45,286 nt of DNA from Pirellulaceae bacterium (GTDB lineage: Bacteria; Planctomycetota; Planctomycetia; Pirellulales; Pirellulaceae), in assembly GCA_016784735.1 (NCBI GenBank), contig JADHUC010000050.1:1-45286 (forward strand). The letters run 5' to 3'. How positions within the stretch are numbered: position 1 is the stretch's first letter; the number at the start of each line of letters is the position of its first letter. The notes beneath the pieces are model-generated. The model saw nothing but the letters and a program-made list of their open reading frames with translations. It did not search any database and was not told where the DNA came from. A program made the position numbers and the translations under genes. This document shows positions 1-43,121 of the stretch, one piece after another.

Positions 1-157
1 GGTGTCAGGTTTCAGGTGTCAGGGAAGAGGGCTCTCGGCGTCTGACACCCATCCCCCCCCCGGCAACCCGTATCACGTACCGCCTATCCAGTTTCGAACT
101 TTCTTGCTCGACACCCGACACCCGACACCTGAAACCTGACACCTGAAACCTGACACC
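1..157. repeat. GTGTCAGG-type inverted repeat, copy 1 (upstream of Dop-like gene)
   Basis: Bases 1-23 are an exact reverse complement of bases 135-157, so the whole stretch can fold into one long hairpin. The arms are made of degenerate GGTGTCAGG / CCTGACACC units, and the right arm carries extra units from about base 108. Near the right arm lies GTTTCGAACT (91-100), which is the same core, inverted, as in the two later copies. The left end may continue outside the window. A Shine-Dalgarno (AGGAG, 164-168) follows directly, so the element sits between the upstream gene and the ribosome binding site. Confidence 0.85.
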
Positions 158-176
158 CTTTTACAGGAGAAAACCA

Positions 177-1799
177 ATGGCCATACCAAAACGTGGCGGC
201 CGCGACTGCGAGTTCTCGACCACGGGCGTCGACGCTGCCGGCCGATCCATCGATCCCTGGAAAGTCACACGGAACATCCTGCGCCAAATCGGGCCGGCGC
301 TGGCAGCGTACGGGGCCAAAGCGTGGTCTCGCCAAACACGATCGCGAGGATACGGCTATGGAAGCTATGCCACGCAGTACTCGTCGGACTGCTTGCGAAG
401 CTGGACGAGTGCCGGCCAATGCTACTACTCGGACATGGCACATTACGAAGCGGCCTCGGCCACTAGCCTGGCGCCGAAGACTTTCGCCGCACAGTGTCTC
501 AGCACGGTGCTGGCGGGCGAGGCCGCTAGAAAGCTGGCCGAGGAGGAAGCGGACGAAGGCGAGACGTACGATCTGACGACCAGCAACGCCGATCTTTTGG
601 ACCCGTCGATCAGCTTCGGCACGCACCTGAACGTCCAGGTCCACAGCTCGCTGTGGGAAGACATCATCCGGGAACATCGGCATCCGGCGATCCTGGGATA
701 CGTGACAAGCGCGTTGGCTGCCGCGATTCCGTTCTTTGGCGCTGGCTATCTGCTGCCGTTGAACGACGGAACCACGATCTACAGCCTCAGCGCTCGTGCC
801 CATCATCTATCAAAGATCAAAACGTTGAGCACGACCCAGGCGTTCTCCCGCGGTTTATTGAACAGCCGGCGTGAATCGCATACCGAGAAACACGAGCGAT
901 TGCACCTGATCGGGTTCGATTTCGACATTCTTAGCTCGGCGCCCATGTTCTCTCTGGTTCAGTGCATCCTGGCTGCGGCCGAGGAAGGCTACTGCGGCAT
1001 GAGCCTGTTCGATCCGGTGCGCGCGCTGCGTACCTGGAGTTGGCGTTTGGATTTGAATACCGGAAAGCTGCCAGCGACCGCGATGCTGGTGGACGGCCGT
1101 CAGTTGACACTGCCGGCGTACGTGCGCGAGCTGGCGACGGTCTTGCTGAACATGTGCGAATCCGGCTTGATCACCGACGAGATCGCCCCCCAGGCCACCG
1201 ACATGCTAGCCCTGGTCATCGACCTTGCCAACTACGCCGATGAGGGTTCGATCGTCCAGTGTGCAAAGAATGTCTCATGGGCCGCCAAGCTCTTGTGGTT
1301 GACGCAACTCTGCTCGCAAAGTAGCGCCACGCTGGGCGATGCCGAGACGCGACTGGCCGACCACGACTTCTGTCACACCAACCCGGAACGCGGAGCATTC
1401 TGGCGTCTGTGGGAGGAAGGGATGGTCGACCCGATGGTCACCATCGAAGACGCAGAAGCGTGTCTGGTCGAGGGCCCGCTCGAAAGCCGCGACTGGGGAC
1501 GCGGCCGGATCATCGACAAGTTCTTCGATCAAGTCGCCGACGTGGACTGGGGCTTCGTGGATCTCCGCTCCGGCGACGGGCTCTGGAGCCCTCGGCTGCG
1601 AGTGGAATTGCCGCAACTGGACAGTCTGAACAAGCAACAGTTCGAAACGATCATCCGCTCTGCAGTCGATCCGGAGCATCTCAGCCAGTTGTTAATCAAC
1701 GGTACCGACGCCGAGACGCGTCAGACGGACCCTGTGGACGATATTACGCGAGAGCTGGCCATTGTGCCGGAGACCGCGTTTCAAGCGGAGGAAGAGTGA
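177..1799 (+). CDS. Dop/PafA-family enzyme, Dop-like (UBact deamidase/depupylase candidate)
   Basis: A 540-residue protein of the Pup deamidase/ligase superfamily (glutamine-synthetase-like fold, cytosolic). By family knowledge Dop deamidates a C-terminal Gln of Pup and removes Pup from substrates using ATP as cofactor. Seen: N-terminal DCEFSTTG (10-17) at the place of the ExEYG metal-binding strand; SDMAHYE (85-91), matching the Dop motif DHAHPE, with D86 as the expected catalytic Asp; GTHLNVQVH (148-156) where relatives have HENYL; and SRGLLNSRRESH (224-235) followed by RLHLIG, matching the family's RGIINTRDEPHA...RRLHVI. The DxAHxE pattern is why I call it Dop-like rather than PafA-like; this is inference. 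The N-terminal glutamate pair is D10/E12 and the HENY motif is degraded, so it is divergent. The start is fixed by AGGAG 9 bases upstream. It is 98 bases upstream of UBact in the same direction, with a repeat between. Confidence 0.82.
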   Translation: MAIPKRGGRDCEFSTTGVDAAGRSIDPWKVTRNILRQIGPALAAYGAKAWSRQTRSRGYGYGSYATQYSSDCLRSWTSAGQCYYSDMAHYEAASATSLAPKTFAAQCLSTVLAGEAARKLAEEEADEGETYDLTTSNADLLDPSISFGTHLNVQVHSSLWEDIIREHRHPAILGYVTSALAAAIPFFGAGYLLPLNDGTTIYSLSARAHHLSKIKTLSTTQAFSRGLLNSRRESHTEKHERLHLIGFDFDILSSAPMFSLVQCILAAAEEGYCGMSLFDPVRALRTWSWRLDLNTGKLPATAMLVDGRQLTLPAYVRELATVLLNMCESGLITDEIAPQATDMLALVIDLANYADEGSIVQCAKNVSWAAKLLWLTQLCSQSSATLGDAETRLADHDFCHTNPERGAFWRLWEEGMVDPMVTIEDAEACLVEGPLESRDWGRGRIIDKFFDQVADVDWGFVDLRSGDGLWSPRLRVELPQLDSLNKQQFETIIRSAVDPEHLSQLLINGTDAETRQTDPVDDITRELAIVPETAFQAEEE

Positions 1800-1803
1800 G
1801 GAG

Positions 1804-1873
1804 GGGTGTCGGGTTTCGGGTGTCGGGGAAGAGAGTTCGAAACTGGAAAGTCGACACCTGACACCCGACACCC
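1804..1873. repeat. GTGTCGGG-type inverted repeat, copy 2
   Basis: The left arm GGTGTCGGGTTTCGGGTGTC (from 1804) and the right arm CGACACCTGACACCCGACAC (1852-1871) are complementary. The loop carries AGTTCGAAAC (1834-1843), shared with copies 1 and 3. It begins 5 bases after the stop of the Dop-like gene and ends just before the UBact ribosome binding site. Confidence 0.85.
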
Positions 1874-1897
1874 GTCCACCTATTTGAAAGGAGCAGA

Positions 1898-2104
1898 ATG
1901 ATGACCTTGCAGAAAACTCAGGAACGTACGGCGAACCAGCAAATCGAGAATCCCGGCGGAGACCCGTTCGAAGGCGGCGCGGGCAATCTCGCCCAGCAAG
2001 CGACCGCCTTCGCGAACGTGGCTCGCCAGGCCCGGCAAGATTGCGAAAGAGGCGCCGATGCCGAACGTGCCCTCGAAGCACGCCGCAATCGTTCGGGACA
2101 ATAG
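1898..2104 (+). CDS. ubact: UBact, prokaryotic ubiquitin-like (Pup-like) modifier
   Basis: A 68-residue, hydrophilic, Gln/Arg/Glu-rich protein ending in RRNRSGQ. It lies between a Dop-like and a PafA-like gene. Pup and UBact are small, mostly disordered proteins with a C-terminal Gly-Glu or Gly-Gln by which they are joined to substrate lysines. The Gln end implies deamidation to Glu before ligation, the known logic for mycobacterial Pup. Seen: a probably disordered N-terminal third with NPGGDPFEGGAGN (18-30), then a probable amphipathic helix (about 31-62) rich in Ala, Arg and Gln, as in the Pup segment that binds the proteasomal ATPase (role inferred). There is only one lysine (K6), so modifier chains could form only there or at the N-terminus. 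GAAAGGAG at 1886-1893 supports ATG 1898; ATG 1901 is an alternative. Very short, but the position and the tail make the call strong. Confidence 0.88.
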   Translation: MMTLQKTQERTANQQIENPGGDPFEGGAGNLAQQATAFANVARQARQDCERGADAERALEARRNRSGQ

Positions 2105-2143
2105 CGAGAAAGCCTGGACGCGGTGTCTGGCCACAACCAAACA

Positions 2144-2256
2144 GGGTGTCAGGTGTCGGGCAAGAGAGTTCGAAACTGAACCGTCGGCACGAGATTCCGA
2201 GGGTTGGGCGTTGGGTGCGGGCAGCCCTCTTCCCCGACACCTGACACCCGACACCC
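2144..2256. repeat. GTGTCAGG/GTGTCGGG-type inverted repeat, copy 3
   Basis: The left arm GGTGTCAGGTGTCGGG (from 2145) is complementary to CCCGACACCTGACACC (2233-2248), with further CCCGACACC after it. The interior has AGAGAGTTCGAAACTG (2163-2178), the core shared with copies 1 and 2. It fills the gap between the UBact stop and the Shine-Dalgarno of the PafA-like gene. An open frame runs through it into the ligase gene, but the true start lies downstream. Confidence 0.85.
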
Positions 2257-2288
2257 CTCTTCCCTTCCCCCAGTCCCGGAGGCAAGCC

Positions 2289-4619
2289 ATGGTGAAGGTC
2301 AACGGCAAATTCGCTTTGAGTATCGAAATCGAATGCCTCACCGCCACCCCAGACAATCCGCGGTATCGTGAGCCGGCCATCTCGCGTTTTATTCAGGCCC
2401 TTCGCGATCTGGCTCCGTCTTTGCCTGCTGGCGCGGGCATCTTCAATGGATATGCCAAGGTGTACCGCGACGTGGGGCATATTGAGATAGCGGTCATCGA
2501 ATGCGACTCGCCGTACTTGCTGACGTCCGTCACCGAACGGATCCAGCTACTGGCGGCGCGTGCCGTCGACCAACTCCGCGCTGACGGCATCAACTTGTTG
2601 CTGGCCAACAACAATCATTCAGGACTGCTGCAAAGCAATTGCCCCGTGTGGGGCGACCACGAGAACTACTTGGTCGAGCAACATCCGTCATCGTTCACCG
2701 ACGACATTCTGCCCTTCCTGGTCACCCGAATCTACGGCGGTGCAGGCGGCGTGCATTTCCCGAGCGGAAAGTTCGTGGCGGCCGTGCGCCCGATTTGCAT
2801 GGCCTTGGCCACCGGCGGCGGGACAACCGAGATGCGAGCGATCCATAGTACAGCTCGCGAAGAACACCACATGGGCCCGTCGCCAGACAGCTATCGCTAC
2901 CACCTGATTCTGGGTGACGGTCACCGCAGTCACTTTAATCTTGCCGTTCAATTTGGCGCCACTGCATTGGCCATCAAGGCAATCCTGTTCGACAGCCAAC
3001 TGCGCCGCGAAATCGGCGTATTCCGGCGCGAGTTCGGGGACGATTGGGTGGGGGCGCTGCAGCGTTTGAACGTACTGGCGAAGCCGGGCGAGGAACTTCG
3101 GATCGATCCTCTGATCACCAAGACCCAACGCCTGTATCTTGAAGGCGCACGCCGGTACGCGGCTTCATTGGATGATCCACCCGACTGGATCAGCCGGTCG
3201 CTCGACGACTGGGAAGCCACGCTCGCTGCCTACCAACGGCTGGACCGACCGTGGCTATCGGCACGCCTGGACACGTTTGCCAAGTACGAGTTCTATTCGG
3301 CCGTGCTCAGCGAAGCCGGTTGTACGTGGCAGAACCTGCCGCAGCGCAAGAGCATGTTTGACGAGTTGGCATTGCTGGACCACAGCTATCATGAGTTCTG
3401 CAGTCAGCAGTCGGTCTTCAACCGGCTGGAAGAGGCCGGCGTATTACATCATCGCGTGTGCGAACCTATTGCTCCGGGCGAGGAACCCGATCCTCACGTT
3501 CCCGAGACGACCACGCGAGCGCGAGCACGCGCCCGCTTTATTCGCGACAATCAGAACCGTGACGAATTGGTAGTCGATTGGTCGTGGATTCACGACAAAC
3601 GCCAGAATCGCCGCTGCCATCTCTACGATCCCTTTGCCAGCAAAATGGGGCCGTGGGAAAGGGCGACCATGCGCGAATCGATTCGCCCTGAAATGAGCCA
3701 CATCGCCGTCCATTTGGACAGCGTTCTGGAAAGGTACGATCGCGGACTCTACGAAGAGGCTAGTCGGCGTTTGGAGGAAATCACGCATTTCTGCCACGCC
3801 ATGGGGGTCGATCTGCCGAATCGAGCTCACCGGTACCGGGCGTGGCTTCAGGCCCGAACCGGCCACGCTGACGCAATAAGCATGCTGGACCGCATCTATC
3901 GCGGCAGGTCGGTGACTTGGGGAACGGTGACCGACTACTCGAACGTGCACCGATTCCAGGGCGGACTTTGCCCCGATCTGCAGTCGATGGAGCCTTGGAT
4001 AGAACAGGGCAAACGTCTATTGGACGCGATTGGCGAAGGCGCACCCGAGCCGGAAGACGCCTTGGTCTTCCGCGAGCATGTGGCAGCGGTCCTTCTCAGA
4101 AACGGACGTGCCGAAGAAGCCATGGATATGCTCGAACAGTGCCGGACCGCGGGGCGTTTTCGGCAATGCACACCACGCGTCAGGGCGCGATTGACCGCCG
4201 CTCTGGGCGAAGCGCATCGTTTGCTCGGCAACCGCCGCGAAGCCCAACGACTTCTGCGAACTGCCATGCGGGTGCAGAGGCAGTACAACTACCTGGGCCA
4301 TCTCGCTTACTTCACCATGCCGGCGATGGCCAAGTGCGCCCGTGTACGCCGCGCCGCGCTACAATGGCTCGCCAAGGCATCGGAAATCCAGACCCAGCAT
4401 CGCGACCGCCTCGGCCACACCACAACGCTGCTGCTGGAAGCCCGTCTATGCCGAGACGACTCCCGATCCGCCGAGTTGAAACAGCAGATCACAGCGTATC
4501 GAGAACAACTGCCCGCTCTGTCGCAATGCTCACGCCTAGCCACGATCCTCGACGAGTGGAATGCCTGGACCGCCGGTGAACTGCTGGACGGCCAAAGCGA
4601 TGAGTTTTTGGGGCTCTAA
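2289..4619 (+). CDS. PafA-like UBact ligase with C-terminal helical-repeat extension
   Basis: A 776-residue protein. Residues 1 to about 450 belong to the Pup ligase PafA/Dop family: IEIE (12-15) at the ExE metal site; YRDVGHIEIAVIEC (59-72), matching PafA LYLDVGSHPEYATPEC, with D61 as expected catalytic Asp; DHENYLVEQH (123-132); ILPFLVTR (140-147); and RYHLILGDGHRSHF (203-216), which aligns with the family's RLHVIVGD region. PafA phosphorylates the modifier's C-terminal Glu with ATP and joins it to substrate lysines (family knowledge). From about residue 480 to the end the sequence looks like TPR-type helical hairpins (for example AVLLRNGRAEEAMDMLEQC and GEAHRLLGNRREAQRLLRTA). Classical PafA is about 450-480 residues, so this is an added region, perhaps for substrate or partner binding (inference). 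Start chosen at ATG 2289, preceded by GGAGG at 2278-2282; the frame is open upstream only through a repeat. Downstream is an unrelated oxidoreductase; no proteasome gene follows. Confidence 0.85.
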   Translation: MVKVNGKFALSIEIECLTATPDNPRYREPAISRFIQALRDLAPSLPAGAGIFNGYAKVYRDVGHIEIAVIECDSPYLLTSVTERIQLLAARAVDQLRADGINLLLANNNHSGLLQSNCPVWGDHENYLVEQHPSSFTDDILPFLVTRIYGGAGGVHFPSGKFVAAVRPICMALATGGGTTEMRAIHSTAREEHHMGPSPDSYRYHLILGDGHRSHFNLAVQFGATALAIKAILFDSQLRREIGVFRREFGDDWVGALQRLNVLAKPGEELRIDPLITKTQRLYLEGARRYAASLDDPPDWISRSLDDWEATLAAYQRLDRPWLSARLDTFAKYEFYSAVLSEAGCTWQNLPQRKSMFDELALLDHSYHEFCSQQSVFNRLEEAGVLHHRVCEPIAPGEEPDPHVPETTTRARARARFIRDNQNRDELVVDWSWIHDKRQNRRCHLYDPFASKMGPWERATMRESIRPEMSHIAVHLDSVLERYDRGLYEEASRRLEEITHFCHAMGVDLPNRAHRYRAWLQARTGHADAISMLDRIYRGRSVTWGTVTDYSNVHRFQGGLCPDLQSMEPWIEQGKRLLDAIGEGAPEPEDALVFREHVAAVLLRNGRAEEAMDMLEQCRTAGRFRQCTPRVRARLTAALGEAHRLLGNRREAQRLLRTAMRVQRQYNYLGHLAYFTMPAMAKCARVRRAALQWLAKASEIQTQHRDRLGHTTTLLLEARLCRDDSRSAELKQQITAYREQLPALSQCSRLATILDEWNAWTAGELLDGQSDEFLGL

Positions 4620-7462: not shown

Positions 7463-10400
7463 CTATCGAAACGTCACCGTCAACTTGGGCGTGTAGCGTT
7501 TTTCCTGGTACTCTGAAGCAAGTACCTGGAAGCGGTAATGCTGTCCGTCGTCGATCGAACGATCAATCTGCGGGGCAATCGCCAGACCGTAATTGGGCGT
7601 TTTCCCGGAAAGCCAAGCGCGAACCAAGTCGGCGACATCCAGCCGGTACTCGATCGGTGGATCTACGACATCGCGCTCCGCGTTTGGAGGAACGATGATG
7701 TGCGGCGAAGGCGTCGCTGTGTCGACACCGAAACGAAACGTCCGCCCGCCTCGCCACGTTTCACCGGCAGACGGTCGTTGCCAAGTTGCCTCGCTCTCGT
7801 CCCAAGGCGTCGTCAGGCCGAAGGCGTGCACCTTCGCGTTGCCTTTGCCGCTTGGGTCCCACACATGGAAGCTGACCGTGGCTTCGACGACGCGGGCGTC
7901 CTGCGGCATGTCAAGCTTGTCCAAATCAAAATGGACAAGAAACGCACTACATTCGTCGCGACGCTTCAGTCGATTGTCGCGTGGGACGCTGCCGAAGTTC
8001 TGGTCGGGCGACTCCGGATCGACGATCGTATCTCGCACGGCATCTCGACCCTGCAGGATGATTACCGAGCCAGTTCCTTCCTGCCCCGGAGTCTCGGACA
8101 TCGCCGCCGGACTATTGGGAGCGAACTCTTCAACATAGGCCGGCGGCGCATTGGCCGCGTCGCGACGCGGCGTGCGAAGGTCTACAAGGCGACGCACCGG
8201 CCGAGGCGCCGCCTCAGATATGACACGAGCCACGCGGACACGCAAAGCCCAAACGTCCTGTGGTCGCAAACTAGCATAGTGAACCTCGCCAGCGTCTTCG
8301 CCGCCGGCGACGCCGGTACCCCGATGTTCGGCTTTCAAGTTCAGTGCCTCCCTGACCGACTGGCCGACGGCCCATCGCGGCTGCCCCAGCACTTTGGCCA
8401 GCAGCGTCAGGTATTCCACGTCCTGCTCGCCACGGCGGTAGGCTTTCAGCCGAACCGACGGAATCGGCTCGCGTTGGCCCAAGTAACTGCCGGGATAGAA
8501 CAGCGAAAGTTGATCGGCCTGCTCCCACGATTCGTGACGGCCAATGGTCTGCCAGGGCAGGACGCCGTCGCTACCCAGAGTCCAGGAATCCAAACACCAG
8601 CCGACCGCCTGCATGTTGCTCTCGTGGATGGCGTTCGTTGTGCCATAGTCGACGACGATCTGGCCGAAGTCGCGTTTGCGGTCCAGCACGATACGCGTGT
8701 AACGGCGCAAGACACGGCCGTTTACCACGTTGTAATCAAGCACATGATCCAGGGAATCTCGTTGCCATTGGGGCCGCGAGATGTCGCAACGATAGAGCAG
8801 CTTGGCCTTCTCCCCTGTGTTACCGCGCGCCGCGGCTACGCCTTCATGAAATGCTTCGCCAAAGTAGCGCAGTGCCCAGTAGTCCTGGAAGTTCGCCGGT
8901 TCGTCCAACAGCCACGGCGACGACCCGCGCGACCAGCCGCGGCTCTTGAAGTTCACCTTGTTGTTGAAGTAGCAGTGAAACAGCGTGTCGTGCCAGCCTT
9001 GTCTTTCAACATGCGCGGCGATCTGCCGCGACGCTTCCGTAAAGGCCTCGCGATATCCGGGACGAAAAGCCCGGTCGGCCCAGTAGTCGCCGTTGTAGTC
9101 CGGATCGATCGGGCTGGGCCAATTCTCATGGAGCGGCAAGTAAAACACCTCCAGCGGCACGCCTTTGCGCGGCAAGTCGTCAAACGCCGCTCCGCTCAAG
9201 TAAGCGCCGAACCGCCGCTCCCATTTCGACCAATCGAGTTGCCCGTCACGCCACTCGGGAGCGCACCCATCGTCCACGCGGCCGTTCTGTGAATAAGGCA
9301 GTCGATTCAGCAGCGTACGATGAACGTGTGCCAACCGGTAATAGTCGCCCTCGTTTTCGGGCAAGCTGTAGCAATTCATCTCCGACAGGAAACTCAGAAA
9401 ATCCGGCAGGGTAAAATCCCAGACCCGGACGATCACGTTCAGTTTCAGCGTGCCGCCATCAGCCTCCAGCGTCAATGTGCCGCGATGGGCACCGGTTCGC
9501 GCCGCATGCGGCACGTAGACTTCGCACAAGAGACTAGCGCGAGTTTGGCCGGCAATTCGGTTGTCGGAGTGCGGTACACTGACCGGATTTTTCAGCGGGA
9601 CAACCGGATCCGGCAGTGGGCCAGCATTGGAGTTCACGTAGCGGTAGCGGCCCCAGGTGACCTCGAACCCCTGATCGTCTTCTTCGAACACAAGCGACGG
9701 CCGGACGTTGTGGACCTGACCGTCGAGCAATACCTGAAACGCCACGAACTCGTTACGCGCGGCGGCCAGCCGTACCTGTCTGTCTTTCGCTCGGAACAGG
9801 TGATTCGCGCTCGCGTACTCGGCCGGTTGTTCAGGAATCATCTTGCCGGTCGCCGGATGCACTTTGTCCAGCGCGTCGATCACCGTCACTTTCGCGCCCG
9901 CCAGCGTCGGCAGCGGAGCGGCCTCGCCCAACGATTCCGGAAACGTACCCGGCAGTGGCTCGCGGTCGAAATCCGAGACGCGGAAGGTCTCCGTCACCGC
10001 CGCTCCGATGTTCCCTGCCCCATCAACGGCCCGAACGGAGAGTTTGACTTCTTGCCCGGAGCGCAGGTCCAGATCGCGCAACCGCATCTTGACTTGCTGT
10101 TCTGGATCACCAGCCGCCGGAATCAGATACCTCGGCACCAGCTTGCCGTCGAGTGACACCAGAAAACCAATGGTGCCCGCCGGCCCTTCGTCACGCGGCG
10201 TCGTCCAAAGGATTTCGGCCTCGCCAGCCGGCAGATCGCTCGTGTCGACGGCTATCTCACCCGGAGCCGCCGGAGGGTCTCCGTCTGCCGGCCCCAGGGA
10301 CACTGTGAAAAACGGCGCACTCCCCTGCCCAGACTCGCGACTGTGGAAGAAGCGATTGGGGAAGTGACGCGAGTTGAACTGTTCGCCGTTGCGAGTCCAC

Positions 10401-41795: not shown

Positions 41796-42317
41796 TTACT
41801 CTTGGCGAACGGACTTACCTTCTTGGTGATAGAGGATTTTGCCACCGGAATCCCGGGAGATTATTGAATGGACAAACGTAGTCTCATCAAGGAATCGAAT
41901 CGTGATCGCTCCCGCAACGCCATCTGCTGGCTTGCTCGTAAAGGTAAACGTCTGGTTTTGCTCGTCCCACGTTCCGGTTGACTCATTGTAGAACCCTCCC
42001 GACACGAAGAGCCAATAGCGATAGGTCTTTCTGTTCGAGTCATAGGTGTACATCCCCGCGAAGCCGGGCTTCCCTTTGTCATCGAATCCTCCCGCCTCTT
42101 GGACGAATCGACCGCCGAGAACCAGTTCCCTCTTGACGTCGAGTTTGGTCGGGCCGTTCTCCTTCGGCACTTTAACGATTTGTTCGACCTTCCAAGTACC
42201 AACCAGTCTTTCCAAGGCTTTGATTTCCGGCGGCGTGTCACCGTCTTGGCCTCGAACGTTGGACTGCATCAGTACGGCCACGACCAAGAACGCAGGCATC
42301 GGAGTCAGACATCTCAT
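41796..42317 (-). CDS. Secreted DUF1579-like protein, tandem copy 1
   Basis: A 173-residue exported protein. Seen: signal peptide MRCLTPMPAFLVVAVLMQ with cleavage near VRGQD; then LERLVGTWKVEQIVKV, GGRFVQEAGGFDD, GMYTYDSNRKTYRYWLFVSG and TGTWDEQNQTFTFTSKP, the strand pattern of DUF1579-type lipocalin-like proteins of unknown role. It is a tandem duplicate of the gene at 42534-43064, with the signal peptide nearly identical. Ribosome binding site AAGGAC, spacing acceptable. A terminator follows. Confidence 0.8.
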   Translation of the reverse strand: MRCLTPMPAFLVVAVLMQSNVRGQDGDTPPEIKALERLVGTWKVEQIVKVPKENGPTKLDVKRELVLGGRFVQEAGGFDDKGKPGFAGMYTYDSNRKTYRYWLFVSGGFYNESTGTWDEQNQTFTFTSKPADGVAGAITIRFLDETTFVHSIISRDSGGKILYHQEGKSVRQE

Positions 42318-42373
42318 GGCGGTGTCCTTGCGAGAGGTTGAGGGGAAGTACGAAACGCGTCCAATACCCTATC

Positions 42374-42533: not shown

Positions 42534-43064
42534 CTACTTCTGGCGAACCGCGTTGCCTTCCATGTGAAAGCCGATTTCGCCATCCGCGTCTTTCGCGATG
42601 ATCGACCAGTCAAATGTCTTCTCGTCCAAAAAGTGGATCGTTGTCACTCCCGTAAGACGCGACTCGGAACGTGGCCGGAAGATCAGCGTCTGGCGATCGG
42701 CGATCCACGTTCCAATAAACTCTCCGAAGGCTCCGTCCGAGACGTAGAACCACCAGAGATACGCCTTCTTCTCCGTGTCATACGTGTACGTTGACGTATG
42801 GATTAGGTTGCCTTCGTCATCGAATCCTCGCCTTTCCAGGAATCGCCTGCCGAGAATCACCGCTCCTTTGTCAGTGGAGTTCGTGCGACTCTCGTCCGGC
42901 GCCCATTTGGATGGTTTGTTGATGTTCAAGACCTTCCAAGTGCCAGCCAATTTTTCCAGAACTTTCATTTCAGGCGGCGGAGCACTTGAGTCTTGGCCGC
43001 GAACTTCGGCATGCATCAGTACAGCGACAACCAAGAACGCAGTCATGGGAGGCAAACATCTCAT
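42534..43064 (-). CDS. Secreted DUF1579-like protein, tandem copy 2
   Basis: A 176-residue exported protein, paralog of the gene at 41796. Seen: signal peptide MRCLPPMTAFLVVAVLMH, then LEKLAGTWKVLNIN, GRRFLERRGFDDEGN, STYTYDTEKKAYLWWFYVSD and DEKTFDWSIIAKDADGEIG. The two copies share the domain plan and the downstream terminator and flank, and are diverged in the mature region. AAGGAG 8 bases upstream of ATG 43064 makes it the better-signalled copy. Confidence 0.8.
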   Translation of the reverse strand: MRCLPPMTAFLVVAVLMHAEVRGQDSSAPPPEMKVLEKLAGTWKVLNINKPSKWAPDESRTNSTDKGAVILGRRFLERRGFDDEGNLIHTSTYTYDTEKKAYLWWFYVSDGAFGEFIGTWIADRQTLIFRPRSESRLTGVTTIHFLDEKTFDWSIIAKDADGEIGFHMEGNAVRQK

Positions 43065-43121
43065 AGCGGTCTCCTTGGGGAAGCTGACGGTGAGAACGAT
43101 ACATTTCAGCCAAATTGGCTG

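Follow-up and report, generated by a model that had tools for sequence, protein, structure and literature searches.

BIL and Bub are bacterial defence systems encoded by operons for ubiquitin-like proteins (Ubls), and UBact is said to have been described from Gram-negative phyla by Lehmann et al. in 2017. That planctomycetes couple Ubl conjugation with Pup conjugation has been published: Kaur et al. (2020; PMC7159879) devote one sentence to it. Here we describe a locus of the same phylum with the same coupling. The window, by which we mean the whole 45,286-nt stretch of DNA analysed, is the complete contig C394 of a Pirellulaceae genome (G000; 11.66 Mb, 79% complete, 5.5% contaminated). Its first genes encode a Dop-like enzyme, a small Pup-like modifier and a PafA-like ligase. 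The left end of the contig falls inside an operon; the operon's remaining genes, which lie on another contig of that genome (C20), encode a predicted ubiquitin pathway of eukaryote-like type, with an E1, an E2, a Ubl and a JAB protease. We propose that the operon probably serves dual protein tagging, with its second half in the window, and that its two reversible pathways would work together. The genes, their order and linkage, the conserved catalytic residues, the predicted folds of Ubl and E2 and the agreement of gene histories are observed; activities, co-transcription, shared substrates and end point we infer from them.

In the accessible text of Kaur et al., genes, gene order, loci and mechanism of the coupling are unnamed. 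Relative to that text, we add the gene order in two subfamilies, a ligase with a TPR-like tail, an Mpa-like ATPase, the failure to find a proteasome and a rule for the modifier tail. Ubl- and Pup-conjugation genes share one neighbourhood here, both across the C20/C394 join and in the loci of relatives. In the literature searched, we found the coupling only in PMC7159879, as far as the accessible portions of these papers go; those of PMC11354881, PMC9503650, PMC7947786, PMC13296761 and PMC7203096 make no mention of it. The same search returned no description of the gene order, the ligase with its TPR-like tail or the tail rule. We conclude that the principle of Ubl/Pup coupling is known, and that the system of the window is a detailed variant of it with a TPR-like tail on the ligase.

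Three described systems invite comparison. The locus resembles Pup–proteasome and UBact systems in its Dop, its PafA, its modifier ending in Gly-Gln or Gly-Glu and its candidate Mpa/ARC-like ATPase; it differs from them in that no proteasome was found, the modifier matches no Pup or UBact model, and E1, E2, Ubl and JAB genes lie in the same run. With type 6d, as set out in the accessible part of Iyer et al. (2006; PMC1779556), it shares separate Ubl, JAB, E1 and E2 genes and a region ahead of the JAB part, which in our proteins carries an invariant Trp and Arg, whereas its E2 keeps the HPN motif and its gene run also includes a Pup-type cassette and a candidate proteasome-type ATPase. The single-ligase Pup systems of Rhodopirellula and Plesiocystis also include a Pup ligase without a linked proteasome (in the planctomycete), but have one ligase and no linked Dop, according to the accessible part of Iyer et al. 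(2008; PMC2588565). One ligase with a transmembrane insertion marks the membrane-type single-ligase system; the window has two enzymes, in a clade apart.

A ten-gene run across two contigs

The run comprises ten co-directional genes, in the order RING-like, E1, E2, TY-chaperone-like, Ubl, JAB, AAA, Dop, modifier and PafA, with intergenic gaps of -20 to 324 bases, and we infer that they form one transcript. The upstream genes are given below in the coordinates of contig C20 (locus L083), where all are on the minus strand.

C20 6629–7228, minus strand: possible RING-like protein with conserved Cys
C20 5470–6645, minus strand: E1 (Pfam ThiF, PF00899, 1.8e-18, above cut-off)
C20 4537–5142, minus strand: E2 (HPN and Cys, predicted E2 fold)
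C20 3554–4447, minus strand: TY-chaperone-like protein (PF22551, 0.0029, under cut-off)
C20 3248–3517, minus strand: Ubl (predicted ubiquitin fold)
C20 2008 to 3036 or 3066, minus strand: JAB protease (Pfam Prok-JAB, 0.0028, under cut-off)
C20 137–1906, minus strand: Mpa-like AAA ATPase (PF00004, 1.6e-14)
Window 1–74, plus strand: overlap with the start of contig C20 (74 against 75 bases, 99% identity)
Window 177–1799, plus strand: Dop-like deamidase/depupylase, 540 residues (Pfam Pup_ligase, PF03136, 2e-34; TIGR03688, 8e-28, below cut-off)
Window 1898–2104, plus strand: Pup-like small modifier, 68 residues, C-terminus ...RRNRSGQ, present in 9/9 cassettes of the subfamily
Window 2289–4619, plus strand: PafA-like ligase, 776 residues (PF03136, 6.7e-35; TIGR03686, 8e-29, below cut-off)

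In the relative G041, seven further co-directional genes lie upstream of the Dop/modifier/PafA cassette, and a search with the AAA protein of that genome located our own AAA gene at the extreme end of C20 (66% identity). Window bases 1–74 reappear, reverse-complemented, as bases 1–75 of C20, and the two copies differ by a single indel, a C within a C homopolymer; setting the window itself aside, the next-best match to the overlap in the genome outside C394 is 49 bases at 86%. Because of this 74-base overlap, and because no equally good match exists elsewhere in the genome, C20 and C394 are almost certainly adjacent. A dispersed repeat of GACACCTGA/GACACCCGACACC-like units occupies three successive intergenic gaps of the operon (window 1–160, 1801–1880 and 2135–2260), and may have caused the assembly to break at this point. 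Window bases 1–120 match 31 places in the genome, itself included; that this repeat-rich stretch recurs over many contigs suggests that C394 belongs to the G000 genome.

The Ubl is predicted with ubiquitin-type topology (predicted local distance difference test, pLDDT, 88.6), the Get5 Ubl and ubiquitin are the top Foldseek structures, and its conserved end, PEV[SA]AG, is followed by 0–6 residues in 7/7 proteins. The HPN motif of the E2 and the Cys ten positions further are invariant (5/5). A profile search with the E2 gave four eukaryotic E2s as the best matches (0.011–0.043), then unrelated proteins and more E2s; our own E2 protein has no Pfam match. The E2 model is of moderate confidence (pLDDT 71.5), and the 50 listed structural matches are E2 or E2-complex entries, only the first of them below 0.001. 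The JAB protein has no PDB match; its metal-site residues E203, H274, H276, S299 and D302 are invariant in 8/8. For the AAA protein, the best NCBIfam match is the proteasome ATPase TIGR03689 (2.3e-25, positions 107–542), and in a PDB search proteasome-associated ATPases align to it over a longer single stretch than CDC48-type ATPases do.

The Pup-type cassette and its modifier tails

The original prediction for this part of the window was a UBact cassette. Its Pup-type genes were borne out; a stand-alone cassette was not, as the run also encodes an E1, an E2, a Ubl, a JAB protein and an AAA protein. The coordinates of the 68-residue modifier ending in RNRSGQ, between Dop-like and PafA-like genes on one strand, were confirmed, and Shine–Dalgarno-like sequences precede the Dop, modifier and PafA genes (CAGGAG, AAAGGAG and CGGAGG, respectively). 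The proposed profile search with Pup-ligase and Dop models recovered both enzymes. NCBIfam prefers Dop for the Dop-like protein (97.5 versus 65.8 bits) and PafA for the PafA-like protein (100.6 versus 53.9 bits), with both scoring far below the equivalog cut-offs of ~490–550 bits. In a midpoint-rooted tree of 41 proteins from these genomes (17 Dop-like against 18 PafA-like and 6 single-ligase), the two stand on opposite sides of a 100/100 split. On the basis of profile preference and tree, we rejected a swap of the Dop and PafA identities. The presumed catalytic acids are kept: R9, D10, E12, D86, H89 and E91 are invariant in 10/10 Dop-like proteins, and E13, E15, D61, H64 and E66 in 11/11 PafA-like proteins. 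Dop D86 and PafA D61 each fall on the D of the equivalent motif in solved Dop and PafA structures, a position that we take to be the catalytic Asp.

The ligase part of the PafA-like protein spans approximately residues 1–450 and is followed by a C-terminal TPR-like region (Pfam TPR_12, 3e-4, under cut-off). The reading frame extends back to an ATG at 2058; homologue starts and the upstream sequence favour 2289, and we rejected the earlier start because homologues begin near 2289. The TPR-like tail is fused to PafA in G000, G009, G041, G417 and G620 and at least partly in G449, and is absent from the PafA of G234, G408 and G693; the PafA of G040 lies off its contig. A 1046-residue frame in G015 (L056 2512–5652) has its C-terminal third and WGL end in common with this tail; it belongs to no PADLOC family, and its N-terminal part appears NTPase-like by eye.

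A profile seeded with the modifier found the small gene in all nine subfamily cassettes in which the Dop–PafA gap is sequenced, with E-values from 2e-30 (its own row) to 2e-10; G040 is left out of this count, as its contig ends before the gap. Third codon positions are the most variable in the nine modifiers (0.65 versus 0.47 and 0.42). We rejected a chance open reading frame on the grounds of conservation in 9/9 cassettes, aligned tails and third-position variation; a conserved small gene between the enzymes, on which the original prediction had staked itself, is thus present. The proposed alignment of C-termini, made with these nine and two modifiers from Dop-less relatives, shows 10/11 ending in G[QE] and one in AE. 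Membership of the UBact family found no such backing: none of the Pup or UBact models of Pfam and NCBIfam picks up the modifier of the window at E-values up to 10.

We typed the tails of 44 modifiers; those of G746 and G040 were not typable. Beside a linked Dop (n = 16), ten modifiers end in Gln and six in Glu, and without a linked Dop all 28 end in Glu: those of G190 and G272, and 26/26 found at single-ligase loci (29 loci examined with a filter that accepts Gln and Glu alike, three of which yielded no modifier), whose ligases form a separate tree clade (six sampled). The association of Gln tail with linked Dop has a Fisher p of 3e-6, for rows that are related, some nearly identical, and uncorrected for kinship. 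Since Gln tails occur only with a linked Dop, the typing supports Dop as the putative deamidase of Gln-ending modifiers, and conversion of Gln to Glu, as originally predicted, would be its natural role.

A minimal variant, consisting of one PafA-like gene of the window's clade and a GE-ending modifier, is present at L054 9341–10979 (G190) and L055 4275–6093 (G272). Each of these genomes has one Pup_ligase match, with no E1, E2 or JAB match within the 20 kb and 6.6 kb examined, respectively. At L058 1–819 (G404), a single frame joins a Dop fragment to a PafA fragment beside an AAA fragment, and looks decayed. The window's own genome has a second Pup-type pair on contig C410, a modifier ending in HGGE (L038 8364–8531) and a single ligase (8554–10170). 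This pair has no adjacent Dop, and its ligase falls in a different tree clade from the PafA of the window.

Distribution and history of the two halves

The Ubl half and the Pup half form one locus that is kept together, partly or wholly, in 15 genomes of two subfamilies. The window's subfamily occurs in ten (G000, G009, G040, G041, G234, G408, G417, G449, G620 and G693). From the first gene to the modifier, the locus is sequenced in five: G000 (on two contigs), G041, G234, G693 and G449, where the contig stops within PafA. The remaining five loci are incomplete owing to contig ends or, in G620, to the limit of the stretch examined. Gene order is identical wherever the sequence reaches, with no deviating order in the ten genomes. 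The order is kept, too, in a second, divergent subfamily, that of G125, G147, G443, G446 and G480, whose Dop and PafA are on average ~25% identical to those of the window's subfamily. Profiles detect JAB, AAA, Dop and PafA in 5/5 of its genomes, E1 in 4/5 (G147 meets a contig end) and E2 in 2/5; by the HPN...C motif the E2 is present in 5/5, as is the modifier by its tail. Its Ubl was recognised by eye in G125 and G147 and weakly (0.01) in G443, and none was identified in G446 and G480.

Across the phylum, Dop at ≥50% identity is present in 4/392 genomes, our own included, and a PafA match at 1e-10 in 12/396 genomes of the order, some of them partial. The JAB family of the operon occurs in 7/392 phylum genomes, all seven of which also carry Dop. 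At the two-enzyme loci of G467 and G481, the sequence examined yielded no E1, E2, JAB or Ubl, and the order in G481 is modifier, PafA, Dop; the G746 locus is on a 5.7-kb contig, too short to judge its neighbours.

Distance matrices of E1, JAB and AAA correlate with those of Dop and PafA at r 0.95–0.98 over both subfamilies, values that are dominated by the split between the subfamilies. Within the second subfamily, JAB and AAA correlate with Dop and PafA at r 0.92–0.95 (n = 5), and within the window's subfamily correlations are r 0.40–0.82 (n 5–9).

Beyond the ten-gene run, the flanks of nine loci, some of them short, share nothing at 1e-6 among frames of ≥100 residues, and we accordingly rejected further conserved genes outside it. 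PADLOC matches in the flanks are to a PDC-M25A ATPase, a reverse transcriptase and PDC-S01 (L035 13279–14490, L037 3387–4424 and L072 11161–12000), with a weak match to Avs2 for the flank protein at L034 1–2373. Elsewhere in the window, two adjacent genes (41796–42368 and 42534–43121) have near-identical starts (MRCL.PM.AFLVVAVLM) and appear to be a tandem duplicate.

Proposed mechanism and alternative readings

In the pathway that we propose for the Ubl, the JAB protease would trim any residues beyond the -SAG end, and the E1 would then activate the Ubl. The E2, through its HPN motif and active-site Cys and perhaps with the RING-like protein, would pass the Ubl to targets, from which the JAB protease could also remove it. 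In the second pathway, the Dop-like enzyme would convert the terminal Gln of the modifier to Glu, the PafA-like enzyme would link that Glu to target lysines, choosing targets partly through its TPR-like region, and Dop would take the modifier off again. The Mpa/ARC-like AAA protein may bind to the Pup-like modifier or to proteins with both tags, and unfold or disassemble them; without a 20S proteasome, the outcome would be remodelling or hand-over to another protease.

A search for 20S proteasome subunits with PF00227 gave no match in the window's genome, a provisional absence at 79% completeness, and thus revealed no proteasome encoded elsewhere in that genome. Among the ten subfamily genomes, PF00227 is missing from four and present once in each of six, as HslV by model in G234, G693, G041 and G408 and as HslV-like by motif only in G009 and G417. 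Four of the five second-subfamily genomes have no match, and in G125 there are two, one HslV-like and the other weak and unclassified. In total, PF00227 matches 11 places in 10/21 genomes: five HslV by model, four HslV-like by motif and two unclassified (G481 and the weak match in G125). The AAA proteins end in short tails such as RYLRVQPA, with no terminal GQYL-type motif. Because no 20S proteasome was found and the AAA tail lacks a GQYL-type motif, the end point of the AAA protein is likely to be unfolding, disassembly or hand-over to some other protease.

Several observations weigh against a dual tagging operon. Sequence searches link the Ubl to no known Ubl, and its fold is a prediction. 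The RING-like proteins of the window's subfamily match neither RING nor any other Pfam family, and two divergent counterparts that were scanned match Prok-RING_1 (PF14446) at 3e-5 and 0.15, both under cut-off. With TIGR03689 the AAA protein reaches 89 bits, where the cut-off is 505, and CDC48-type ATPases outrank proteasome-associated ones in its PDB search. In all ten Dop-like proteins, Asp replaces the first Glu of the canonical GxExE motif. Three of the ten Dop-matching genomes in the phylum sample (G467, G481 and G746) have no match to the operon JAB. Permutation p is 0.048–0.10 for three of ten within-subfamily correlations and lower for the remainder; as the comparison of distances included no unrelated control gene, common ancestry of the species may account for some of the agreement.

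Other readings were weighed against these data. A plain UBact or Pup–proteasome cassette, whose modifier marks proteins for 20S degradation beside unrelated upstream neighbours, would account for the Dop and PafA homologues, the Gln tail and the proteasome-ATPase-like AAA gene; we regard it as highly improbable, given that PF00227 is missing from the window's genome and matches HslV by model or motif in the subfamily, that the AAA C-termini have no terminal GQYL-type motif, and that order and history are common to the cassette and the genes upstream of it. Two independent pathways that are merely co-located, each with its own substrates and with no common readout, would fit the full enzyme set of each half, the G190 and G272 loci, where PafA and a Glu-ending modifier stand without E1, E2 or JAB matches, and the two-enzyme loci of G467 and G481. 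This we consider unlikely, since every genome with the operon JAB family also holds Dop and the gene histories agree across the two subfamilies.

An anti-phage or conflict system, in which Ubl and Pup-like tags are placed on invader or effector proteins as proposed for other bacterial Ubl operons, is a minority possibility that we hold somewhat doubtful. The patchy occurrence of the locus (Dop at ≥50% identity in 4/392 phylum genomes) agrees with it, and the accessible text of Kaur et al. (2020; PMC7159879) connects the Ubl side with conflict systems. The E1 gives partial matches to 19 E1–E2 models of PADLOC (best 6.8e-7) and the AAA protein matches TRIP13 (1e-5), while of seven flank proteins three strongly and one weakly match defence-candidate or reverse-transcriptase models. 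However, these E1 and AAA matches are weak or partial, PADLOC gives nothing for the remaining eight proteins of the operon up to an E-value of 1, and the conserved gene set contains no effector or toxin. Flank genes vary among loci, and ATPases of this kind give loose matches to many models, one protein alone hitting 99 families. Viral contigs yielded no relative, in a scan sensitive to close relatives only, and plasmids gave one match, at 26% identity, in an 11.9-Mb, chromosome-sized Nonomuraea record; on these two results we also rejected mobile or viral carriage.

We therefore retain a dual tagging operon as the probable reading. A narrower version of it, in which two chemically unrelated tags (the Ubl via E1–E2 and the Pup-like modifier via PafA) are attached to shared substrates or to one another and are read by an Mpa-like unfoldase without a proteasome, is offered tentatively; if true, it would amount to a bacterial tag code, with remodelling in place of degradation. 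The locus poses testable questions: do the tags cooperate, and what is the role of a proteasome-type ATPase in genomes that yielded no 20S proteasome? Tagging of the ubiquitin type and of the Pup type, usually viewed as separate inventions, are here joined in one bacterial locus. The association of the Gln tail with a linked Dop also supports the view that planctomycete Pup systems generally need deamidation.

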